From the IMG/VR virus record IMGVR_UViG_3300025889_000831, positions 1 to 26,181 of that record: 26,181 nucleotides of DNA, one strand, 5' to 3'. The stretch comes from a virus. The stretch's first letter is position 1; each line of letters opens with the position of its first letter. Below are positions 2 through 24,486 of this stretch, in pieces. The notes beneath the pieces are model-generated. The model was not told the origin of the DNA. It saw nothing but the letters and a program-made list of their open reading frames with translations, and did no database searches. A program made the position numbers and the translations under genes.

Positions 2-2311
2 AATTCTTCTACAGGAAAAGTTGAATTAGAAATTGGTACGCATGTAGATAATAAAGGAAGATTCATACCTAGATATGAAGAAGGGTCTAAATATATTAAT
101 GAAGAATATAAAAAATTGCAGGCCCGACCTTCTAGTGCTGAGTACCAATTATTAGAAACATTGAAACAACAGCATTTGAAATTTCAAGAGGATACTCCTA
201 ATTCATCTAAACTATATCTAGACTTACCTAGATTTGTATTAAGAGATAATCTTTCAGTAATTCAATCTGGTAAGATTGGTAATACAACCAAGCAGATTAA
301 AGAAAATTTCTTACAGTATTTTAGAGATATACGAGGAGCAAAAGATAGATCTGTTGATGACTATAACTTTGTATATGATGATACTACTCAAGAGTATAGA
401 CTTGTATCTACAACTTTAGAGGGTGAAGAAATAGAAAGAATTCCTGTAGCAGGTTTATTTGATATAGATATAGATAATGTTGATCCAGATGTTACACGTA
501 ACATGATGAGATATTTATACTCTTTGGAGCAACAAAAGAAATTGGTAGAAACACTTCCTATGGTTCAATCAATTCTTGATACTCTTGAAGATCCTGATAA
601 CTATCTTAAAAAACAACAAGTATATAGCCGAGGTGCTATGAAGACTGCAGGCAAAATGGTATCAGTTAAAGAAAAGAAAACCTATAATAGATTAGGGCAA
701 GTAAAATCTTTAATTGAAAGAGAATACTATGGTAGAAAATTTGAAGGTGGATATGGATGGGAAGTATTTGATAGAGTCTTAGGAAAAATACAAAAACTAT
801 CTGCAAGATCATCTTTAGCATTGAATATACCATCTGACTTGAAAAACAGGTTTGGTCAGTTAATGCAGAACTATATTGAAATGGCAGGTGGAGAATTTAT
901 AAATACTTCAGACTATGCTAGAGGTAGACTTTGGGCAGCATCAACTATGACTAAATGGCTTGCTAAAGATGTATATGAAGTAGGAGCAGGTTCTTTAAAC
1001 TATCAATTAGTAGAAGCTTTTGATTCTGTATTTATGACAGAAGATAAATTTGGTAGAACTATTTCAAGAAGTTTTGTAAAAGATTTACTTAATGGTGAAT
1101 GGATGTACATGGCTAGAAAAAATTTAGAAATGGAAGCTGCCTTACAGTTATTTGGTGCATTTTTAAATTCTGAACGTGTAGAACAAAAACTAGCTAATGG
1201 TAAAACTCGTAAACTAAGATATGTAGATGCTTGGGAAATAGATAAAGCTACAGGTGTCATGAAACTTAAAGAAGGTATTGATCCTGAGTATAATAATAGA
1301 AAGGTACAGCATACTTTTAAAGAAGGTGAAACTTTTGAATCTATAGCAGATGCTTATGGTATTAGTGTAAAAACTCTTAAAGAAAGAAATGGAGTCAAAT
1401 CTATTCTAGAATTAAATGAAGGTGATGTACTTACCATAGCTAATATGGAAAAGTTTAAATCATTTAAAAATAAGTTTGCAGGAGTTTCCAGAAGATTGTA
1501 TGGTGCATATGATGAATTTGGACAAGCAGAAGGTAATAAGTATTCAGGTTATAGGTTATTTACATTTATGAGAAAGTGGTTCTTTCCAATGTTCTTTAAT
1601 AAATGGGGATTCAGCTATGATAAAACTCAAGGTAAATATCTATTTTCTCCTGAAAGATTTCAGCCAAGATATGATTGGGCTACAGGTACAACTCCTATAG
1701 GATATTATGTAAATGGATATAAAGCATTTGTTAAGGCTTTAGACTTTAAAGCTAAAGGATGGAACTATTTAACAGCTCAAGAAAAAGCAGACTTTAAAAA
1801 GTCAATGATGGATGCTATGATTATAGCAGTTGCGGCAATCATATTAATACTAGGATTTGGTTATGATCCAAGTGATAAAGAAAGATTCCAAAAAATGAAA
1901 AAGAAATCTGGACCTTTATTTGGAAAAGACTTTGAGCTTGCAGGATACTTAGAAAACTTAACTCAAATACTTACTATAGGTACTATGCAAGAAGTTACTG
2001 CATTTATTCCAATGGTAGAAGTTGGTGTAGTAAACTTTGGATTGGATGATTATATGAAATTGTTTACATCCACAACTACAGCTTTTGGAAATACTATAGG
2101 CTTATATGCAAAAATATTTGATGATCTAATTAAGCACTTAACAGGTAATGAAAAAGCATACTATCAAAAAGATACAGGTGAGCTTTGGTATAAGAAAGCA
2201 GGTCAACCTAAAGTTATATCACACTTGTTAAGAACAGTAGGTGTTACAGGTAGCACCCAAGATTTACCTGAAACTTTAAAAGGAATTGAATCATCTGGTA
2301 AATTAAGATAA
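2..2311 (+). CDS. C-terminal part of a very large late protein, LysM-like segment (partial)
   Basis: The reading frame is open from the left edge, so the true start lies outside; the TTG at 116 is not a credible start. The visible 769 residues are lysine- and glutamate-rich. A LysM-like segment is encoded at about 1307-1440 (a GETFESIADAYGIS helix pattern, then a LELNEGDVLTI strand). A strongly hydrophobic stretch of about 18 residues (about 1817-1860, MIIAVAAIILILG) could be a membrane or fusion helix. No RNA polymerase catalytic motif is visible in this part. In crAss-like phages the end of the late block usually holds giant virion proteins, including the virion RNA polymerase and ejected cargo proteins. 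From position and size I infer a virion or cargo protein; the exact function is not recognised. Confidence 0.8.
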   Translation, partial: NSSTGKVELEIGTHVDNKGRFIPRYEEGSKYINEEYKKLQARPSSAEYQLLETLKQQHLKFQEDTPNSSKLYLDLPRFVLRDNLSVIQSGKIGNTTKQIKENFLQYFRDIRGAKDRSVDDYNFVYDDTTQEYRLVSTTLEGEEIERIPVAGLFDIDIDNVDPDVTRNMMRYLYSLEQQKKLVETLPMVQSILDTLEDPDNYLKKQQVYSRGAMKTAGKMVSVKEKKTYNRLGQVKSLIEREYYGRKFEGGYGWEVFDRVLGKIQKLSARSSLALNIPSDLKNRFGQLMQNYIEMAGGEFINTSDYARGRLWAASTMTKWLAKDVYEVGAGSLNYQLVEAFDSVFMTEDKFGRTISRSFVKDLLNGEWMYMARKNLEMEAALQLFGAFLNSERVEQKLANGKTRKLRYVDAWEIDKATGVMKLKEGIDPEYNNRKVQHTFKEGETFESIADAYGISVKTLKERNGVKSILELNEGDVLTIANMEKFKSFKNKFAGVSRRLYGAYDEFGQAEGNKYSGYRLFTFMRKWFFPMFFNKWGFSYDKTQGKYLFSPERFQPRYDWATGTTPIGYYVNGYKAFVKALDFKAKGWNYLTAQEKADFKKSMMDAMIIAVAAIILILGFGYDPSDKERFQKMKKKSGPLFGKDFELAGYLENLTQILTIGTMQEVTAFIPMVEVGVVNFGLDDYMKLFTSTTTAFGNTIGLYAKIFDDLIKHLTGNEKAYYQKDTGELWYKKAGQPKVISHLLRTVGVTGSTQDLPETLKGIESSGKLR

Positions 2312-12993: not shown

Positions 12994-13027
12994 TAATAAA
13001 GGGGAACCTTTTCTGATTCCCCTTTAA
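12994..13027 (-). terminator. Hairpin terminator after the SSB-like gene
   Basis: A 9-bp stem pairs 12998-13006 (AAAGGGGAA) with 13017-13025 (TTCCCCTTT) around a 10-base loop. On the minus strand it ends in CCCCTTTATT, a short U-tract. It lies 20 bases after the SSB-like stop. The following primase gene starts about 19 bases further on, again leaving no room for a normal promoter. Confidence 0.75.
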
Positions 13028-14486: not shown

Positions 14487-15053
14487 TTATTTATCCATTT
14501 TAGTTAATAATATATTTGATAAATTTCTCAATTCATTACCTACTTTAATTAGCGCATCTCTTAAATCATCTTGATTATCTGATTTAGGTTTCAGGCTAAC
14601 TTCTAAGTACTCTTTAGCAAAATTTGGAAAATCTGCTTCTTGTGTTTCTACAGGAGGATTCTCTAGTCTTTCTTGGTATTTTGCATAAGGTATTTCTTCA
14701 CCATTAGGTAAAACAGCAACTAGTTCATCCATAGGAACTATATATACTTCATAATCATTACCAGACTTACTAGTCTTTTGCTCTAAAGGATATTCCTCTT
14801 TATAAAAAGGATTAAACTTTAATTTGTATAAAGTGTGTGTAGGATCTTCAGATACACCTTCAAAGTCACTAAGTTCTGTATAGATATCTTTACCTACTTT
14901 AAATTCATTAGGAAAGAATTGCATTTTAAGGTCTTCTCCTGGAGGAGCCCATGCAGATTTAGCAACAAAGTAGGGATCTTTTATACCTAGCTTTTTAAAT
15001 GTTGGCAAATGGGTTGCCATGAGAATTTTGGTATTCTCCTGCCTTGTATTCAT
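14487..15053 (-). CDS. Unknown protein (188 aa) between helicase and Sak4 ATPase
   Basis: The N-terminal two thirds look like a mixed or strand-rich domain with SAWAPPGEDLKMQFFPNEF, HTLYKLKFNPFY and DYEVYIVPMDELVAVL. The C-terminal residues 135-188 are helical, with an acidic LSNILLTKMDK ending. No catalytic motif is seen. Its start overlaps the DnaB-like helicase stop by four bases (ATGA) and its end is one base before the ATPase start, so it is tightly coupled to both. A helicase or recombination accessory protein is plausible, but only from position. Confidence 0.8.
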   Translation of the reverse strand: MNTRQENTKILMATHLPTFKKLGIKDPYFVAKSAWAPPGEDLKMQFFPNEFKVGKDIYTELSDFEGVSEDPTHTLYKLKFNPFYKEEYPLEQKTSKSGNDYEVYIVPMDELVAVLPNGEEIPYAKYQERLENPPVETQEADFPNFAKEYLEVSLKPKSDNQDDLRDALIKVGNELRNLSNILLTKMDK

Positions 15054-16054
15054 ATTTGTATGTTTGTGTTTGTTTTCATTGGTACATCCATTTCTACTAT
15101 TCTTATAGTATCTCTATCTAGTTTAAAGAAACTCATTCTTGTATCACCATTTCTACATTTTAAGAAATGAAATACTAGAGTTTCAGGATCATTTATTTGT
15201 ATTCTTTCAGGACCATAATATCTAATCTTTCTTGCAGCTGGTTTATTAATACCAAGTACTATATCAGCATGCTGTAATAATGCATCAGCACCAAATAGAT
15301 CAGAATCTAAAACATAGTTTCCATATGTACCTTCTATAGCACGTTTAGGGTCATCTATATTTCTATTTAATTGACTTAAGATTACAAATGACAAAGGATA
15401 ACTTCTTTTCATAAAAGTTAGGGCTTCTCCAAGATTATATAACATTTCAAATCTATCCTTCTCATGTGAATCTCTTTTAAATAGAGCTGAGTGATCTACT
15501 GTTACTAATAATTTTGGATAAACCTTTTGTCCATCTTTTTCAACACAGTTTTGTTCAAAGTGATAATGTATACTTGCGCAAAACTCATTTACAGTACAAG
15601 GTCTATAAACAGAGAATACTCTGTTATTTTGAGTCAATGTACTTGTGTATTGTTTACATTTATTATAAATATCTTCTGCAAGTGGTTCATATTTACTATG
15701 TAAAACTCCATAGTCTTTTTGAGTGATTGCTGAAAATGCTCTCATACCAAGAGTTTTTTCAGGCATTTCAAATTGAAATTGTAATACTTGAAAATTTTGA
15801 TCTTGATTTAAAGCAATAACTTCAGTAACAAGTTGTTCCATGAACAAAGTCTTACCAACACCAGGTCTAGCACCAACAACAGTTAAAGTATTCCACTCTA
15901 ATCCATTTAAGGTAGCATCATTAAATTTAGGCCATGCTGTTTTTAGACTTTTAATTCTTCCGTCCATCCTGCCTCTCATCTCTATAAGAGCCTTCTCATA
16001 AGCACGAACTTTGCTAATAGCCTTTAAAGGCTTTGCATTTTTAAATTGTTCCAA
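15050..16054 (-). CDS. DnaB-type replicative helicase (SF4), short form
   Basis: The 334-residue protein carries Walker A GARPGVGKT at 61-69 and QFEMP at 93-97. Walker B LLVTVDH spans 181-187, and the ILSQLNR motif (224-230) is typical of DnaB and T7 gp4 helicases. ADALLQHADIVLGI, the H4-like region before the Arg finger, follows. E. coli DnaB is about 470 residues; here the N-terminal primase-interacting domain is essentially missing, leaving about 45 residues before the RecA core. It would unwind DNA ahead of PolB. Loader function could lie in a neighbouring unknown gene. Confidence 0.92.
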   Translation of the reverse strand: MEQFKNAKPLKAISKVRAYEKALIEMRGRMDGRIKSLKTAWPKFNDATLNGLEWNTLTVVGARPGVGKTLFMEQLVTEVIALNQDQNFQVLQFQFEMPEKTLGMRAFSAITQKDYGVLHSKYEPLAEDIYNKCKQYTSTLTQNNRVFSVYRPCTVNEFCASIHYHFEQNCVEKDGQKVYPKLLVTVDHSALFKRDSHEKDRFEMLYNLGEALTFMKRSYPLSFVILSQLNRNIDDPKRAIEGTYGNYVLDSDLFGADALLQHADIVLGINKPAARKIRYYGPERIQINDPETLVFHFLKCRNGDTRMSFFKLDRDTIRIVEMDVPMKTNTNIQI

Positions 16055-16055
16055 C

Positions 16056-16643
16056 TTATACTATTTTTTCTCTGAAAATATCATTTTCATTAGAGCTACT
16101 TTCATTTAGCATATCACAGTAAGTAGCTAAATCTGATTCAAAAGATTTATCAATGTTTTGTTTTCTAATGAAATATTGGGATGTTCTCATAAATTCATAA
16201 TTTTTAGAACTATACTCTTCCACATACTTTTGTGTTGCTTTAAATATAGTTGCCCACTCGTAATCATAATTTTCAAAGAACCATCTAAAACCTGCTTCTA
16301 GATTTTTTACATTGGTTCTTGCATATTTACCACTTCTTAATTTTGTTGAGGGAAATATTTCATTGTATGTTTTAATACATACATCAAATTTATCACCCAT
16401 TAAATCTGTTGAAGTTTTCTTCTTACTCTTTCTAAAATAAGAGTTTAATTCCTCTACAAATATATGACTTTTTTGTGAAAGAGTCAAATCTTCATTTAAC
16501 CAGCCATCTGTTTGTAATCTAGTAATTTCAATACTACTATTAACAAATGAATTAACAGACACCTTATTCTTAATACAATAAAGTACATACAAAGAATTAG
16601 GTGTCATTTTTTGTTTTAATAATTTATTAAAGATTTCATCCAT
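16056..16643 (-). CDS. Unknown protein (195 aa), possible winged-helix helicase accessory
   Basis: The N-terminal part (MTPNSLYVLYCIKNKVSVN, then EITRLQTDGWL) has the helix-turn-helix-wing rhythm seen in phage replication proteins. The remainder is helical, with FRWFFENYDYEWATIFKATQKYVEEY, a tryptophan-rich segment that recalls DnaD- or replisome-organiser-like C-termini. It lies one base before the DnaB-like helicase start and directly after UDG. A helicase loader or replication organiser is a reasonable guess; no motif proves it. Confidence 0.75.
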   Translation of the reverse strand: MDEIFNKLLKQKMTPNSLYVLYCIKNKVSVNSFVNSSIEITRLQTDGWLNEDLTLSQKSHIFVEELNSYFRKSKKKTSTDLMGDKFDVCIKTYNEIFPSTKLRSGKYARTNVKNLEAGFRWFFENYDYEWATIFKATQKYVEEYSSKNYEFMRTSQYFIRKQNIDKSFESDLATYCDMLNESSSNENDIFREKIV

Positions 16644-19066: not shown

Positions 19067-19400
19067 CTTTGTTTTGGTTTAATTTAACAATGTCTATTAA
19101 CTTATCAAGACAAGCAAGTTCTGCTTCTTCGTAGGTTTGAAACTCAAAAGCATTAAATATATGTAGCACACCACCTATATTCATAATAAAACTTTCATGT
19201 CCAATCCCATTTATCATGTGACCTAAGCCATATTTCTCTCTAAAAAACCTGAATACCTGTTGGTAGAGTGGTGCTTTTAATACTTCAACCATTTCTGTAT
19301 AGAGATTACCTCCTCCATCATAATATCCAAAACAAGGTTCATCAAAACCAAGTTCTTTGAGTTTAATCGCCAACTCATAAGGTACAAATTCATTTTTCAT
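19059..19400 (-). CDS. Conserved phage protein of unknown function (113 aa)
   Basis: The sequence starts MKNEFVPYELAIKLKELGFDEPCFGYY and has APLYQQVFRFFREKYGLGHMI in the middle, ending in a helix with EAELACLDKLIDIVKL. I recall very similar proteins as frequent small genes in Bacteroidota phages and prophages, with no assigned role. Its stop overlaps the metallopeptidase-like gene by 8 bases (ATGATTGA) and it overlaps the 63-aa gene by 11. The start region follows the repeated junction sequence discussed in the findings. Confidence 0.85.
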   Translation of the reverse strand: MKNEFVPYELAIKLKELGFDEPCFGYYDGGGNLYTEMVEVLKAPLYQQVFRFFREKYGLGHMINGIGHESFIMNIGGVLHIFNAFEFQTYEEAELACLDKLIDIVKLNQNKDD

Positions 19401-19581
19401 CTTTGTTTTGGTTTAAATAAGTACCATCTTCTTCACATTCATTACCGTTCTCATCTTCATAGCCAATAAAATAACAAGTACAATCAGTACCATAATTATG
19501 ATTTTCATAATCTTCTTTTGTAATGATTAAGTCTTGTACACCTAACCTTACATATACTTCTTTAGCTTTTTCTTTACTCAT
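19390..19581 (-). CDS. Small acidic unknown protein (63 aa)
   Basis: A 63-residue acidic protein with VYVRLGVQDLIITKED, TDCTCYFIGYEDENGNE and an LNQNKDEK end. Its C-terminal residues are encoded by the repeated junction that also supplies the next gene's initiation region, so part of its end reflects translational signals. No family recognised. Confidence 0.7.
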   Translation of the reverse strand: MSKEKAKEVYVRLGVQDLIITKEDYENHNYGTDCTCYFIGYEDENGNECEEDGTYLNQNKDEK

Positions 19582-19596
19582 TTTATTTATTTTGGT

Positions 19597-19860
19597 TTAA
19601 ATATCTATAAATGGTAACCATTTAGTTACTTTGTTAATTACTTTAGTATCATTAAATAAATGTGCTACTAAACCTAAACATAAAATGCTTAGTAAGATAC
19701 ATGCAAACAGCATGATAATACCTAATGCTAGGTAAAATATAAATCCTGATAGAGTATTTGTGGTAATTAAAATATATGCACCACGCCCTAATCCATACAA
19801 TCCAGCAATATTACATACTGCCCATGTTAAATAACCCATTCCTTTTAATAATTTATCCAT
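19597..19860 (-). CDS. Small integral membrane protein (87 aa)
   Basis: The ATG at 19860 is chosen over a possible TTG 27 bases upstream because it makes the 8-base ATGGATAA overlap with the previous 35-aa gene. The protein has two to three hydrophobic segments: LTWAVCNIAGLYGLG with GAYILITT, then FIFYLALGIIMLFACILLSILCLGLVAHLF. It ends KWLPFIDI. It resembles small phage inner-membrane proteins, but no holin or superinfection-exclusion signature is clear. Confidence 0.72.
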   Translation of the reverse strand: MDKLLKGMGYLTWAVCNIAGLYGLGRGAYILITTNTLSGFIFYLALGIIMLFACILLSILCLGLVAHLFNDTKVINKVTKWLPFIDI

Positions 19861-19960
19861 TGTTATCTTCTTTATTTTGTTTTGCAATCAAATATTGTAT
19901 ATAGAGATCTTTATCAAAATGATCCCAGAATTGCATCCAGTCTAAAATGTTTGTTCCCAT
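19853..19960 (-). CDS. Tiny unknown protein (35 aa)
   Basis: The ATG is at 19960 and the stop TAA at 19853-19855, inside the start of the membrane-protein gene. The peptide has a tryptophan/aspartate-rich front (ILDWMQFWDHFDKDLY) followed by YLIAKQNKEDNNG, an amphipathic helix pattern. It fills the space between the tRNA and the membrane protein. Supported by packing and coupling only. Confidence 0.55.
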   Translation of the reverse strand: MGTNILDWMQFWDHFDKDLYIQYLIAKQNKEDNNG

Positions 19961-19974
19961 ATTTTATTTTTTAG

Positions 19975-20048
19975 TACACCCAAAAGGATTCGAACCTTTG
20001 ACCTACTGCTTAGAAGGCAGTTGCTCTATCCAGCTGAGCTATGGGTGC
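19975..20048 (-). tRNA. tRNA-Arg (anticodon TCT)
   Basis: Read on the minus strand, the sequence folds into a complete cloverleaf. The acceptor starts GCACCCA and pairs with TGGGTGT with one end wobble. The D arm is AGCTCAGCTGGATAGAGC. The anticodon stem ACTGC/GCAGT carries loop CTTCTAA (anticodon TCT, reads AGA), and the T arm includes GGTTCGAATCC. The discriminator is A, and CCA is not encoded, so host CCA addition is needed. It lies in the gap between the radical SAM gene and a 35-aa gene, cotranscribed with mRNAs. Confidence 0.95.
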
Positions 20049-20053
20049 ATTGG

Positions 20054-20896
20054 TTAAAATATATACCTAATTGTATCTAAATCAAAATACTGTGAATATA
20101 ATTCCTTAAACTCTTCAAGCAATCTTGTTTTATGCTTAAGAGGGTATCTCATCACACCTGATTTGTTTTTAACCTCAGAAGATAATCGCATCAACTCTTG
20201 TGCTTCATCAGATGATCTTACCATTTGATTAGCATGATTAGTTAATGCAATTACTTCACATTTATTTTCTCCTGCTATTTCTTTTACATTTTGAAATAGC
20301 TGACCATAATGATCTTTCCATTTTTTATAGAATACAAGTGGGCTATAGTTTATATGTACTTCCCAACCTAAATCTTTTAGTCTATTAATTTCATGTATTC
20401 TATCTATGGCTTTCTGCATTTTGGGTTCAAGTATGTCTGCATATGCTTGTGGCATTAAACTTACTCTTACTCTTGGTTTTTTATTAAAATGATTTACATC
20501 TAATTTTAATAAACTAGGATACTTAGTAGCCATAGTACTATTCAATCTAGGATGATTATCATATTTTTTTAGATAATCTATCAGTGGTTCTGGTAGATGT
20601 TTTTGCATCAATACTAAATCAGTATTACATGCTATATCTACCATTGTATATACAGGATCCTGTTGATCAGGAACCTTTGTAAATCCTTCTTCCCATTTAA
20701 CAACTGAGTTAAATATATCATCTACATTTTCATTTACAAATACTCTTTTACCATTGTATCTAGACATATAACAATAAGTATCTACACAACCACCAAAGCA
20801 CCCATATATTAAATTAGGTGCTATGCAGTTAGCACTATTATTATTATCCTTAGTTACTAAAGTTTTAGTTACTTGATGTTTAATTGCCGCACTCAT
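20054..20896 (-). CDS. Radical SAM protein, spore-photoproduct-lyase-like
   Basis: The 280-residue protein has IYGCFGGCVDTYCYMSRY, a cluster of cysteines C33, C37 and C42 (spacing CX3CX4C, against the usual CX3CX2C). Further segments match the SPL layout: VDIACNTD with C90, where SPL carries its hydrogen-donor cysteine (ACTSD-like); RVRVSLMPQAYADILEP; RIHEINRLKDLGWEVHINYSPLVFYKKW; and DHYGQLFQNV. SPL uses SAM to reverse a thymine photoproduct. Here the substrate may be a DNA lesion or a modified base. It starts 8 bases after the 77-aa gene and ends 5 bases before the tRNA. Confidence 0.75.
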   Translation of the reverse strand: MSAAIKHQVTKTLVTKDNNNSANCIAPNLIYGCFGGCVDTYCYMSRYNGKRVFVNENVDDIFNSVVKWEEGFTKVPDQQDPVYTMVDIACNTDLVLMQKHLPEPLIDYLKKYDNHPRLNSTMATKYPSLLKLDVNHFNKKPRVRVSLMPQAYADILEPKMQKAIDRIHEINRLKDLGWEVHINYSPLVFYKKWKDHYGQLFQNVKEIAGENKCEVIALTNHANQMVRSSDEAQELMRLSSEVKNKSGVMRYPLKHKTRLLEEFKELYSQYFDLDTIRYIF

Positions 20897-20904
20897 TGTT
20901 TACT

Positions 20905-21138
20905 CTAAAAAGGCAAATCTTCTTTGTTACTTGTTTTGTCCTCTTCAATGGTAAATTCTTCTGGCTCAATCTCTTTTTTCTGAGCAGAACTAACCTCATT
21001 TTTCTTTCTTTCATATTCTTTTAATTCATAAGTTTGTAATTCTTTCATATGCAGAATATCAGGCCATGTAAGACCTTCTGGTAATTCACCATCATTGGCA
21101 TTTATAATATTAATGTAAAGTTCCTTTACTCTTCCCAT
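20905..21138 (-). CDS. Small protein (77 aa) with SSB-like acidic tip
   Basis: The N-terminal half is helical (GRVKELYINIINANDGELP, WPDILHMKELQTYELKEYERKK). The second half is flexible and acidic (EIEPEEFTIEEDKTSNKEDLPF). The final DLPF is almost the SSB C-terminal peptide (DIPF in E. coli). It might be a tether that competes for SSB-interacting proteins. The start overlaps the DnaA-like gene end by 13 bases. No further family recognised. Confidence 0.75.
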   Translation of the reverse strand: MGRVKELYINIINANDGELPEGLTWPDILHMKELQTYELKEYERKKNEVSSAQKKEIEPEEFTIEEDKTSNKEDLPF

Positions 21139-21614
21139 TTTACTTTAATTTTAGTTTCCTCAATAAACTCCAAAGCTGTTTTAACTAGATGTAGCACAGT
21201 TTGATCTATTGATTTATCATGAGCGTGTGCATAATTAACTATTCTAGCTATTGTTCTTAAATCATATGTTGTAGTTACTGCTCTTTCTGTTGAATGTGCA
21301 TGTTTAGCATTTGAAACATCAAAAGGAAATTTATAGTACAGCATTGCTACATTCATCTGAAAACTTGGATCTTGTGATTTAGTTAAAGCTATAACTTGCT
21401 TTTTAGAATGATTTATTGTACTCCTATCAATTTTATGTTTTGAATTTTCAAAACATTCTGCAATCATTTCTTCACTGTATCCAAATTTATAGTAAAGAAT
21501 AGTTATTAAATAATTTCTCTGATCTAAATAAGATCTTTTTCTGGTTTTGTGCTCTGGAAATATTTCTTTTAATTCTCGAATAACTTCTTCAGCACTATAA
21601 TTCTTGTCTATCAT
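21126..21614 (-). CDS. DnaA domain IV-like DNA-binding protein
   Basis: The 162-residue protein has, at about 25-76, RKRSYLDQRNYLITILYYKFG, then YSEEMIAECFE and KIDRSTINHSKKQV. The order and the DRSTINHS signature match the DnaA C-terminal HTH (DHSTVxHA-type), which binds DnaA boxes. There is no AAA+ domain. The C-terminal half is helical with HAHDKSIDQTVLHLV. It could bind the phage or host origin region, or be a regulator using this fold. It starts 6 bases after a hairpin-overlapped stop. Confidence 0.7.
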   Translation of the reverse strand: MIDKNYSAEEVIRELKEIFPEHKTRKRSYLDQRNYLITILYYKFGYSEEMIAECFENSKHKIDRSTINHSKKQVIALTKSQDPSFQMNVAMLYYKFPFDVSNAKHAHSTERAVTTTYDLRTIARIVNYAHAHDKSIDQTVLHLVKTALEFIEETKIKVKWEE

Positions 21615-21620
21615 AATGTG

Positions 21621-21670
21621 TTAAATAAAAAAAGGCCATAATAACCCTTTAATTTCTGCTATTATTGGCC
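21621..21670 (-). terminator. Possible attenuator/terminator overlapping the 59-aa gene end
   Basis: On the minus strand GGCCAATAATA can pair with TATTATGGCC (21634-21670) with one bulged A, followed by TTTTTTTATTTAA. The T-run contains the stop codon of the 59-aa gene, and the next start is at 21614. The stem is weak in its lower half, so it is listed as possible only. Confidence 0.4.
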
Positions 21671-21800
21671 CTATAATTAATGATGTCAGAAAATCGTGGT
21701 TCTTTGCATAAAGATACCAAAAATATATCATCATAATTTGGGACACAATAAAGTATGCTGCAATGATATACATCACTGCATTAAATAATTTATCATCCAT
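21621..21800 (-). CDS. Small membrane protein (59 aa)
   Basis: The ATG is at 21800 and the TAA at 21621-21623. The product has a 20-residue hydrophobic stretch (MYIIAAYFIVSQIMMIYFWY) and a second near the end (LIIGPIIAEIKGLLWPFFI), so one or two membrane passes. It fills the space between the DnaA-like gene and the 103-aa gene. No family recognised. Confidence 0.65.
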   Translation of the reverse strand: MDDKLFNAVMYIIAAYFIVSQIMMIYFWYLYAKNHDFLTSLIIGPIIAEIKGLLWPFFI

Positions 21801-21810
21801 ATTAAAGTGA

Positions 21811-22122
21811 TTATTCTAAAGTAGATAGATCAGCATCTTCAGCTGTTATATTTTTAGAATTTTTAAGTTTTGTTGTAGATTTATACTCATTAAGTACAAC
21901 AGGTGCATTATCAGGAACTATTAAAAATCTTTCTAATGCATAATATTTATAAGGAGCTGAAGCTTCTGTAAGTTGTACTTCTTCAAAAGCAACACCTAAT
22001 GTACCATCTTGTGCAGATAACTCTACAACTTCAGTAATGGTGTAAACAGCTCCTTCTTCTATCCATTCATATTCAGATATCTGTGCTGGTTTTTTTGAAC
22101 TATCTATGCAAATCGCTTTCAT
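21811..22122 (-). CDS. Unknown protein (103 aa)
   Basis: The first 70 residues look like a compact beta-barrel (KAICIDSSKKP, VYTITEVVEL, LGVAFEEVQL, YYALERFLIVPD), close in style to small SH3-like phage proteins that start MKAICID. The tail is polar and acidic. It overlaps the ClpS-like gene by 23 bases, so the two are probably coupled. No function known. Confidence 0.75.
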   Translation of the reverse strand: MKAICIDSSKKPAQISEYEWIEEGAVYTITEVVELSAQDGTLGVAFEEVQLTEASAPYKYYALERFLIVPDNAPVVLNEYKSTTKLKNSKNITAEDADLSTLE

Positions 22123-22357
22123 ATTGTTCTAATGAAACATTTACTTTGACATAATCTAGTGTTTCTAGAATAGAATACATTTTATCAAAAGAGCCTGATG
22201 CAATAGTGACCTGACCCTTTTTATGTGCAATAAGAGCACACTGTTCTGCTTGAATTAACGTGTGACCACATATTTCAACTAAACAGCATATAACAAAATC
22301 AAAAGTGAGTTTGTCATCATTATACAGAATGACTTTATGTGTTTTAGATACATCCAT
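22100..22357 (-). CDS. clpS: ClpS-like N-degron adaptor
   Basis: The 85-residue protein aligns by eye with ClpS. HKVILYNDDKLTFDFVICCL (residues 7-26) matches [20 protein letters not shown] of E. coli, keeping N13-D14-D15 of the binding pocket. AEQCALIAHKKG (37-48) matches ATQLMLAVHYQG, keeping the pocket His (H45). The remaining SGSFDKMYSILETLDYV corresponds to the last strand and helix but lacks the Lys equivalent to E. coli K84. Only about six residues precede the fold, so the N-terminal extension that delivers substrates to ClpA is absent. Likely role: bind N-degron proteins or compete with host ClpS. Confidence 0.8.
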   Translation of the reverse strand: MDVSKTHKVILYNDDKLTFDFVICCLVEICGHTLIQAEQCALIAHKKGQVTIASGSFDKMYSILETLDYVKVNVSLEQYESDLHR

Positions 22358-22395
22358 ATTATAATATACTAATTTTTGATGAGATTTCCTGAGCT

Positions 22396-23487
22396 TTAGT
22401 CTAGATTTACATTATAACTCTTCCATTCAATTTTATCCTGGTCAAGATTTTCTAATGCACTTTTAACCCACTTTTCATCTACAGTATTTATATAACATAA
22501 TACATGTACTATAGCTTTCTCATCAGGATTAAGTCTTAATAACCTACCTATTCTCTGTTGTGCTTTTCTTTCATTACCATATGCATGCATAATAATACCT
22601 TGTTTTAATTCTGGTATATTTACACCTTCATTTAATTGCATAACTGAAGATAATTTAGTTATAGAACCTTCTTTAAACATTCTTAAATTATCATCAGAAT
22701 CAGGATTATTACTATGGTAACTATGTGTACATAATCTATCTGCTTGATCCTGTGTATTAGCAAAGAGTATACATTTTGTATTAATGCTATTAAACAATAG
22801 CTTAGCATACTTTTCTTTGCTTGGATACTCCATCATTGCTTTCATTCTCATTACACGCAACATGGTAGTTTGATTTGGTGCAGCATCAATTCTATTACAC
22901 CAGTAACTATAATTCTTCTGCTCAGAAGTCTTAAATGATTGTTTGCCTGTAACCCAATAGTTATTATTTGTACCTAAATTAATTTTATGTACAATAATAT
23001 GATAATCATTGAGTATTTTGTTTTCTACAGCACTGTCTGTAACAAATCTGTAGACAATTGGACAAAAGTCATTAACAAGTTTACCTTTTTCAGAATTCTG
23101 ATATTTAGGTGGTGTACCTGTTAAACCAAGTATTTTACCTTTAAATTCATCAAGAAATGCTCTATGAGATTCTAGCAAACTATGACATTCATCCAAATAT
23201 ACAATATCAAAATCTTTTGGATTCTGTTTATTAATACTTAAATATGTTGTGAACTTAACATTGTTCAACAACTTTTCTTTTTCAAATTTTTGAGCCTCAC
23301 TTCTCCAAGAATCAAATATTGATATCTTAGGTGCAACTACAAGTATATTAAGTAAAGGAGAATAATGATTTTCTAAGTGGTTTAAAGCTACAAGTGTTTT
23401 ACCAACACCTGTAGCTAAAGCCAAACCACATCTTTCTTTACCCTCAGTTGCTTTTAAAGCTTCACTTTGAACTTTTTGTCTGTCCAT
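22396..23487 (-). CDS. SF2 DNA helicase, UvsW/RecG-like
   Basis: The 363-residue protein has Walker A ATGVGKT (25-31), motif Ia VVAPKIS, motif II DECH (99-102) and motif III LTGTPP (122-127). Motif V SSVMQLNEGVNIPEL and motif VI QQRIGRLLR (310-318) complete the set. The two RecA lobes fit the size and the enzyme lacks large extensions. UvsW-type helicases unwind branched DNA and drive the switch from origin- to recombination-dependent replication in T4. The start overlaps the upstream 96-aa gene by 26 bases. A 38-base gap separates it from clpS. Confidence 0.92.
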   Translation of the reverse strand: MDRQKVQSEALKATEGKERCGLALATGVGKTLVALNHLENHYSPLLNILVVAPKISIFDSWRSEAQKFEKEKLLNNVKFTTYLSINKQNPKDFDIVYLDECHSLLESHRAFLDEFKGKILGLTGTPPKYQNSEKGKLVNDFCPIVYRFVTDSAVENKILNDYHIIVHKINLGTNNNYWVTGKQSFKTSEQKNYSYWCNRIDAAPNQTTMLRVMRMKAMMEYPSKEKYAKLLFNSINTKCILFANTQDQADRLCTHSYHSNNPDSDDNLRMFKEGSITKLSSVMQLNEGVNIPELKQGIIMHAYGNERKAQQRIGRLLRLNPDEKAIVHVLCYINTVDEKWVKSALENLDQDKIEWKSYNVNLD

Positions 23488-23752
23488 ATTCTTCCTCGTA
23501 TTTATCTTCTAAATATGTGGCAACTCTATACCACATAGCTTTAGCAGTTTCTTCTGCTAATAATCTAGCGGATACAATTCCTGCATACAAAGCTTCTTTG
23601 GGACTTAATCTAGTTCCTATAACTTCTTCAACATAATCATATCTCTTATGAGTATTAATTAGTTTTTGAGCTAGCTCTAACATGCGTTCTTTAGTTATAT
23701 CCTCAGTACAACTTTCTGATTTGGGTGTCACATTTTGTGATGGCATCATCAT
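23462..23752 (-). CDS. Unknown protein (96 aa)
   Basis: A helical protein (RMLELAQKLINTHKRYDYVEEVIG, LYAGIVSARLLAEETAKAMWYRVATYLEDKY) with a polar tail that overlaps the helicase start by 26 bases. The first residues MMMPSQNVTPK are probably disordered; initiation could use any of three consecutive ATG codons. Not recognised. It lies two bases after the ParB-fold gene's stop is allowed for. Confidence 0.75.
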   Translation of the reverse strand: MMMPSQNVTPKSESCTEDITKERMLELAQKLINTHKRYDYVEEVIGTRLSPKEALYAGIVSARLLAEETAKAMWYRVATYLEDKYEEEYGQTKSSK

Positions 23753-23754
23753 AA

Positions 23755-24486
23755 TTATTTAGTTTTTAGATTAAATACTTTAGATCTAATATAATTAGAT
23801 GCTTCCGTATTATCACTAATAAGCTTAATATTTTTAATATTAGATTTTAAATTATTGATGATTTCAGATTGACTTATCTTACCATAAGCTTGAATAAATG
23901 CACTTAAAAAAGAGAATTTTATACTTCTATCTACATTTGCAAGCATTATAAACAAATCACTAAAGTCTTTGCACATAGCTTCTGCAAGCGGATTAGTAAC
24001 TTTAAACTCTCCAGATCTTATAATCTGACTATTAATAGTAAAACTATAATGATTTCTGCATAGTGCTCCAACCATCATTAGTTCAAGATTATATAAATTT
24101 TTAAACTTTAAAAGTTTCCTATAATCATTAGAACAAAACTTATAAGCATTGACATAATCTAATAATGCCCAAGATTTGGATGAGTTGTTTAATTTACCCA
24201 TTTTATGAACTAAGTCAAGTTCATCTTTAACTTCAATAGTAGTATAAGGTATAGACATACCTTCTCTTTCTAATGCTGTAGCTAGATGCTGACCATCTAT
24301 AATATATAGTTTCTTTTCGCCTTCTACTACATCTGTTTCACATGCAACTATGGGTCTTATAATACCCATATTTCTTACACTTTCTACTAGTTCTTCTACA
24401 TGCTGAGATTTTATTTCTCTATTCATTGGTAGAATTGAAAACTTTTTATAACTGTCTGTGTGTTTAATTGATAATTTCATAATCAT
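23755..24486 (-). CDS. ParB/Srx-fold protein
   Basis: The 243-residue protein has MNREIKSQHVEELVESVRNMGIIRPIVACE near the start and YIIDGQHLATALEREG (about 61-76), the ParB/sulfiredoxin GxH-type signature. Then comes a helix (SWALLDYVNAYKFCSNDYRKLLKF). The C-terminal half is helical and contains no ParB HTH signature I can name. ParB-like folds in phages may act in DNA partition, DNA binding or nuclease-like roles. The start may be at 24486 or, two codons later, at 24480. Confidence 0.8.
   Translation of the reverse strand: MIMKLSIKHTDSYKKFSILPMNREIKSQHVEELVESVRNMGIIRPIVACETDVVEGEKKLYIIDGQHLATALEREGMSIPYTTIEVKDELDLVHKMGKLNNSSKSWALLDYVNAYKFCSNDYRKLLKFKNLYNLELMMVGALCRNHYSFTINSQIIRSGEFKVTNPLAEAMCKDFSDLFIMLANVDRSIKFSFLSAFIQAYGKISQSEIINNLKSNIKNIKLISDNTEASNYIRSKVFNLKTK

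Follow-up and report, generated by a model that had tools for sequence, protein, structure and literature searches.

A stand-alone DnaA domain IV that acts as a transcription activator is already known from GafY of Caulobacter, a protein that is homologous to this domain, binds to promoters and turns on a gene transfer agent (PMC9632790, PMC11150451). The GafY authors propose that the protein does not act on oriC, contrary to an earlier report (cited in PMC9632790) in which the same gene was described, under the name HdaB, as a replication factor. GafA of Rhodobacter likewise carries a DnaA-like N-terminal domain, which is needed for activation (PMC9638019, PMC6363796). DnaA itself recognizes the TTA part of the DnaA box through Arg399 in the minor groove and the remainder of the box through the helix 434-451; the substitutions R399A and T435M impair binding (PMC5742627; also PMC4588119).

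Here we analyzed a 26,181-base virus record, which in its entirety is the window considered below, and in which a protein of 162 amino acids is encoded at 21126..21614 (-), as established by its open reading frame together with profile and fold comparisons. In the computed models, this protein has a DnaA domain IV fold in its N-terminal half and a ribbon-helix-helix (RHH) domain in its C-terminal half. The DnaA-domain-IV-like domain covers residues 5-97 (21324..21602, -; from the VIA-align range 6..97, the hhalign mapping and conservation) and the RHH domain residues 108-157 (21144..21293, -; from VIA-align and weak profile matches). The initial annotation had placed this reading frame and the preceding 59-aa frame (21621..21800, -) correctly, and it had rightly described the longer protein as lacking the AAA+ motor, since two predicted DNA-binding domains fill the whole chain. 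Like the N-terminal domains of GafY and GafA, the phage protein has a DnaA-IV-type helix-turn-helix (HTH) that lacks an AAA+ partner and occurs in a phage-derived setting; GafA continues into a sigma-like C-terminal region, whereas the phage protein has, by fold, an RHH domain there. The pairing of DnaA domain IV with RHH may be new: literature searches on DnaA with crAss-like phages, phage-encoded DnaA or domain IV, RHH with phage, and DnaA-like phage initiators, with most subscription journals outside their coverage, returned no description of this domain pair. With about even confidence, we consider that the protein binds specific DNA sites as a dimer and thereby regulates the replication operon of the phage.

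The family is barely visible from a single sequence. The 162-aa protein alone had no Pfam match at E<=1 and only chance-level matches in PDB and PHROG, and a protein-alone scan for relatives recovered a single near-identical contig. Among 50,697 phage records, neither the window protein nor that of locus L114 had a match, and the two matches of the L121 protein were at chance level (E 7). The well conserved neighbor at 20054..20896 (-), a spore-photoproduct-lyase-like protein (PF20903, E 1.7e-16), was used as synteny bait and returned 80 loci, some of them short; an iterated profile search of these loci found the gene in nine (L004-L009, L012, L013, and L081). An eight-sequence profile led to 47 loci and to the 39-member alignment A2, and later profile scans with A2 and A4 gave 55 loci each. 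Identical sequences were counted once. In L125 and its copy L171, the gene lies in two frames and is apparently broken; it was omitted from A2 and A4, and its pieces were searched separately and stand as separate entries among the 55. For A1, A2, and A4, the L013 frame was cut off ahead of the 77-aa part fused to it. Two scans of a species-genome collection produced 16 pattern matches each and no relative, with the same single pattern and so with limited sensitivity. In every one of the 80 viral loci returned, many of which otherwise diverge, the bait protein shows at least 74% identity, and its conservation appears unusually strong.

The N-terminal half was compared with known structures using two AlphaFold models, one of the window protein, built with A2 (mean pLDDT 88.9), and one of L121 from a helicase-linked subfamily (pLDDT 89.7), which shows the same two domains. 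Structure prediction had been suggested as a check by the initial annotation, and it ranked the domain IV fold first in both models, with modest scores. In Foldseek searches of the PDB, the first and second ranks for the window protein were the DnaA DNA-binding domain 3pvp (probability 0.99, E 0.24-0.34), and the top three for L121 were 1j1v and two 3pvp chains, with nothing at E<=0.001 for either model. In VIA-align, residues 1-97 gave Z 8.0 with 3pvp (85 residues), 7.9 with 8btg (92), and 7.8 with 1j1v (87), followed by ParB 6t1f at Z 6.8 over 60 residues, all among the matches listed, and L121 reached Z 8.6 and 8.5 with 1j1v and 3pvp; these values lie at a level where the tool warns of a mere common arrangement. 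The best viral fold matches were BFVD proteins named ‘Chromosomal replication initiator, DnaA C-terminal’, with E as low as 0.0035 and a probability of up to 1.00. These names are annotations, and some of these viral proteins may share the DnaA-IV and RHH architecture.

Profile comparisons across the family point in the same direction. Aligned by hhalign against 11 DnaA sequences, the 39 homologs of A2 matched over 85 columns with E 1.4e-4; without context the score was 26.0, which was reached by 0 of 150 column-shuffled controls (largest 18.4). At E<=10, PF08299 was the Pfam family most often matched, by nine of the 39 members (best E 0.0012) as against three for the next family, and by 7/40 in a second set. 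The DnaA-type HTH proposed in the initial annotation is thus borne out by the profile of the relatives and by fold comparison, but not by a PF08299 match of the protein itself, which alone gave none at E<=10 (control genomes were positive in 12 of 14 cases); the window protein is accordingly not filed as a PF08299 member. The domain might instead be an HTH of another class, such as sigma region 4, ParB/KorB or DeoR, its likeness to DnaA reflecting convergence on the common trihelical core. Among 40 members, NCBIfam models for sigma70-ECF matched five and DeoR four, with DnaA matching none, and at equal depth (six sequences each), sigma region 4 (E 0.0012, 35 columns) does no worse than DnaA (E 0.0037, 52 columns). 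ParB/KorB HTH folds are also close behind DnaA (Z 6.0-7.5 in both models, with ParB at 6.8-7.5), as is DeoR 7bhy (Z 5.8-6.1; profile E 0.012-0.083), all among the matches listed. However, those matches span the HTH core only (35-68 residues), whereas DnaA spans 80-92 residues in two separate models and also takes in the basic loop and the first and last helices. The DnaA match stands out by its length and not by its HTH core, and we regard membership in another HTH class as unlikely and remote homology of the N-terminal half to DnaA domain IV as very probable. What the phage domain has in common with DnaA domain IV (1j1v, 3pvp) is the whole-domain fold, with the HTH followed by the last helix; it differs from DnaA in lacking AAA+, in its fusion to an RHH domain, and in a shorter stretch before the basic loop.

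The C-terminal half was overlooked by the initial annotation, and residues 108-157 form, in the model, an RHH domain. In VIA-align, this segment matched RHH chains at Z about 5-6.3 (rmsd mostly 1.2-3.4, among the matches listed), including the Rv0298 antitoxin, CopG, AmrZ, PutA, Arc and others, many of them full-length. Profile matches were to ArtA, SvtR (56B), and HP0222, with E 0.06-0.6. None of the 39 members had a significant match to a Pfam RHH family (RHH_7 in 2/39, best E 0.053), and DSSP assigned no strand on the single-chain model. The likeness to CopG, Arc, ArtA, SvtR, and HP0222 concerns some 50 residues at the C terminus and is seen in the fold and in weak profile matches; unlike in these regulators, the phage RHH comes after a second DNA-binding domain.

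The hhalign alignment pairs R25 with Arg399, R33 with Arg407, and D63-R64-S65-T66 with Asp433-His434-Thr435-Thr436 of DnaA. This numbering of the DnaA residues agrees with the aligned ranges. Among the 39 members, the Arg399 position holds Arg in 36 and Lys in three, and the Arg407 position is Arg in all 39, so that both arginines of DnaA domain IV are also found in the phage family; by contrast, the Asp433 position is Asp in 22/39, the His434 position is never His (Arg in 32), and the Thr435 position is Thr in six and Ser in 17. Judged from this alignment, the D-H-T-T base-reading signature is absent from the family. The mode of holding DNA seems to be kept, and the sequence read should differ from that of DnaA: with the arginines kept and the major-groove reading residues changed, a phage-specific site would be expected rather than a DnaA box. 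In this respect the family also differs from GafA, which has E8 where DnaA has R399 (PMC9638019), while the phage family keeps Arg.

The initial annotation had suggested that the protein may bind host DnaA boxes, and such a protein could block or divert host initiation by occupying them. The DnaA-like fold and the Arg399 equivalent (Arg or Lys in 39/39) speak for this idea; against it are the missing His434, the scarcity of Thr at the Thr435 position, and the lack of any enrichment of DnaA boxes in the phage sequences. The window contains three exact boxes against 2.1 expected and 44 with one mismatch against 51.6 expected; in hand-picked loci, exact boxes number 12 against 16.8 expected where the gene is present (13 loci) and 11 against 17.8 where it is absent (10 loci). 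These counts cover phage DNA and say nothing of the host chromosome. Binding to host DnaA boxes is thus left without support by the absence of His434 and of box enrichment, and we consider it very unlikely, although finding TTATNCACA as the bound motif would revive it.

The usual gene order around the family is HNH, ParB-like, SF2 helicase, ClpS, 103-aa, the facultative 59-aa gene, DnaA-like/RHH, 77-aa, the facultative spore-photoproduct-lyase-like gene, UDG, and DnaB. In the window, all on the minus strand, this corresponds to a ParB-like protein (23755..24486; phrog_12305, E 7.7e-16), an SF2 helicase in the same operon (22396..23487), a ClpS-like protein (22100..22357; PF02617, E 1.3e-14), a conserved 103-aa operon protein with no assigned function (21811..22122), a 77-aa protein (20905..21138), and a DnaB-like replicative helicase (15050..16054; phrog_19, E 9.7e-29; PF03796, E 7e-19). 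The first 13 nt of the 77-aa gene are also the last 13 nt of the 162-aa gene; such an overlap is typical of family loci and suggests that the two genes are probably translated in a coupled manner. Of the 55 family ORF entries (the broken gene being counted by pieces), 48 have an SF2 helicase homolog on the same strand at a distance of no more than 1300 nt; among entries flanked on each side by 2.5 kb or more, the proportion is 31/33.

Several other features of this region deserve mention. In L013 (2432-3133), the DnaA-like/RHH and 77-aa genes form one 234-codon frame, which is either a natural fusion or a sequence error. The 77-aa protein of the window ends in ...NKEDLPF, which presumably resembles the acidic tip of single-stranded-DNA-binding proteins; of its 39 distinct homologs, only some end in PF, and these form one subclade of close relatives of the window phage. 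The phage-encoded ClpS-like adaptor is present in the operon of most main-subfamily loci, and a tRNA-Arg (TCT anticodon; 19974-20048, -) lies among the operon genes.

This context raises the main alternative to a transcription regulator, namely origin recognition: the dimer would mark the replication origin of the phage and, in the manner of DnaA domain IV at oriC, assist in positioning the SF2 or DnaB helicase. The gene lies within a replication module (PolB, primase, DnaB, Sak4-like annealing protein, and exonuclease), and in the second subfamily it directly precedes the SF2 helicase gene (gaps of -4 to 9 nt), followed by DnaB (L081, L121, L122, L123, L126, L127, L129, and L176). In addition, three of the 39 members match the PHROG ‘DnaA-like replication initiation protein’ (best E 0.009). 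On the other hand, the same kind of replisome can dispense with the gene. When 22 hand-picked records were searched with A2, it was found in the seven that had been selected as bearers and in 0/15 of the others, which are related records whose syntenic site lacks it; eight of these 15 are 109-115 kb long. Since none of these 15 has it elsewhere, the 162-aa gene is accessory within a conserved replication operon. Moreover, repeat scans of the 26-kb window revealed no iteron-like array, and none near the 162-aa gene. Origin recognition is therefore possible but, in our judgment, rather doubtful. Given the GafY/GafA precedent, the presence of an RHH partner, and the accessory distribution, we favor transcription regulation over origin binding; the same facts would also suit an auxiliary role in replication, and we infer the transcription role from precedent and accessory distribution.

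The same scans brought out other elements. An 18-nt element, TTTGTTTTGGTTTAAATA, and its variants occur at three successive gene junctions (19068-19085, 19402-19419, and 19586-19603), and a fourth copy is intragenic (16229-16246). A perfect 10-bp inverted repeat, TAAAGGGGAA/TTCCCCTTTA, with a 10-nt spacer lies at 12997-13026, upstream of the primase gene. A scan of 19500-24000 for promoter and terminator consensus sequences found no more sites than expected (27 against 29.1 and two against 1.1, respectively). Nor did the analysis bring out a promoter or a binding site for the 162-aa protein.

Expression of the 162-aa gene might also be controlled through its leader. The initial annotation had pointed to a GGCC hairpin with a seven-T run at the end of the 59-aa gene, and this is indeed present (about 21627..21671, -) with a bulged stem, within the last codons of that gene (...GPIIAEIKGLLWPFFI and stop) and 12 nt upstream of the start codon of the 162-aa gene. 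The 59-aa protein is hydrophobic and, by inspection only, probably a membrane protein. In L001, an identical copy, the hairpin has an MFE of -14.5 against -9.4 +/- 2.4 in 1000 synonymous recodings (P 0.027) and is thus somewhat stronger than coding demands. Across ten recoded loci, hand-picked and related and hence not independent, four fold better than 95% of recodings (P<0.05). Perfect-stem hairpins with a T run also occur just before the start codon in three of six leaders of the helicase-linked subfamily (L123, L125, and L176), with differing sequences. Both the position before the start codon and these counts would fit an attenuator dedicated to the 162-aa gene, as the initial annotation had proposed. 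However, the hairpin region also codes for the conserved C-terminal sequence GP...WPFFI of the 59-aa protein, and L005, the nearest relative with an 80% identical protein, shows no excess folding (P 0.51). The 59-aa gene is itself an accessory gene of the operon, present upstream in 26/51 family leaders and missing in 25/51, and in five loci (L010, L011, L014-L016) it is followed directly by the 77-aa gene without a DnaA-like gene; folding of four of these (L010, L011, L014, and L016) still predicted a hairpin in each. A scan for perfect-stem hairpins with a T run, which misses bulged stems, including the window's own, was positive for five of 51 family leaders and for 97 of 1552 background ORFs. 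At the hairpin, Rfam gave nothing above the gathering threshold, only snoRNA models with E 0.24-0.97. Because it is part of the 59-aa coding sequence and is present where the DnaA-like gene is absent, the hairpin is not specific to the 162-aa gene. It does not track with that gene, and we rejected a dedicated attenuator as highly improbable; at most, the hairpin is a weak terminator for whatever lies downstream.

Overall, under the favored reading of a dimeric regulator, the RHH domains would dimerize and hold a palindromic site by means of a two-stranded sheet, thereby placing two DnaA-type HTH heads on flanking half-sites. Such a protein would be expected to recognize a site specific to the phage rather than the DnaA box and would most likely regulate transcription of its own replication operon, much as GafY and GafA regulate gene transfer agents, acting as an accessory regulator and not as an essential initiator. 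It is also conceivable, though somewhat improbable, that the family represents a virus-specific class of initiator in which an RHH dimer takes the place of the AAA+ motor of DnaA and hands the phage origin to the SF2 helicase and DnaB; if so, the phage would recognize its own origin without host DnaA. A DnaA-IV and RHH family that sits in a conserved replication operon and is naturally present or absent among close relatives would provide a direct test system for whether a motor-free DnaA domain IV serves replication or transcription.
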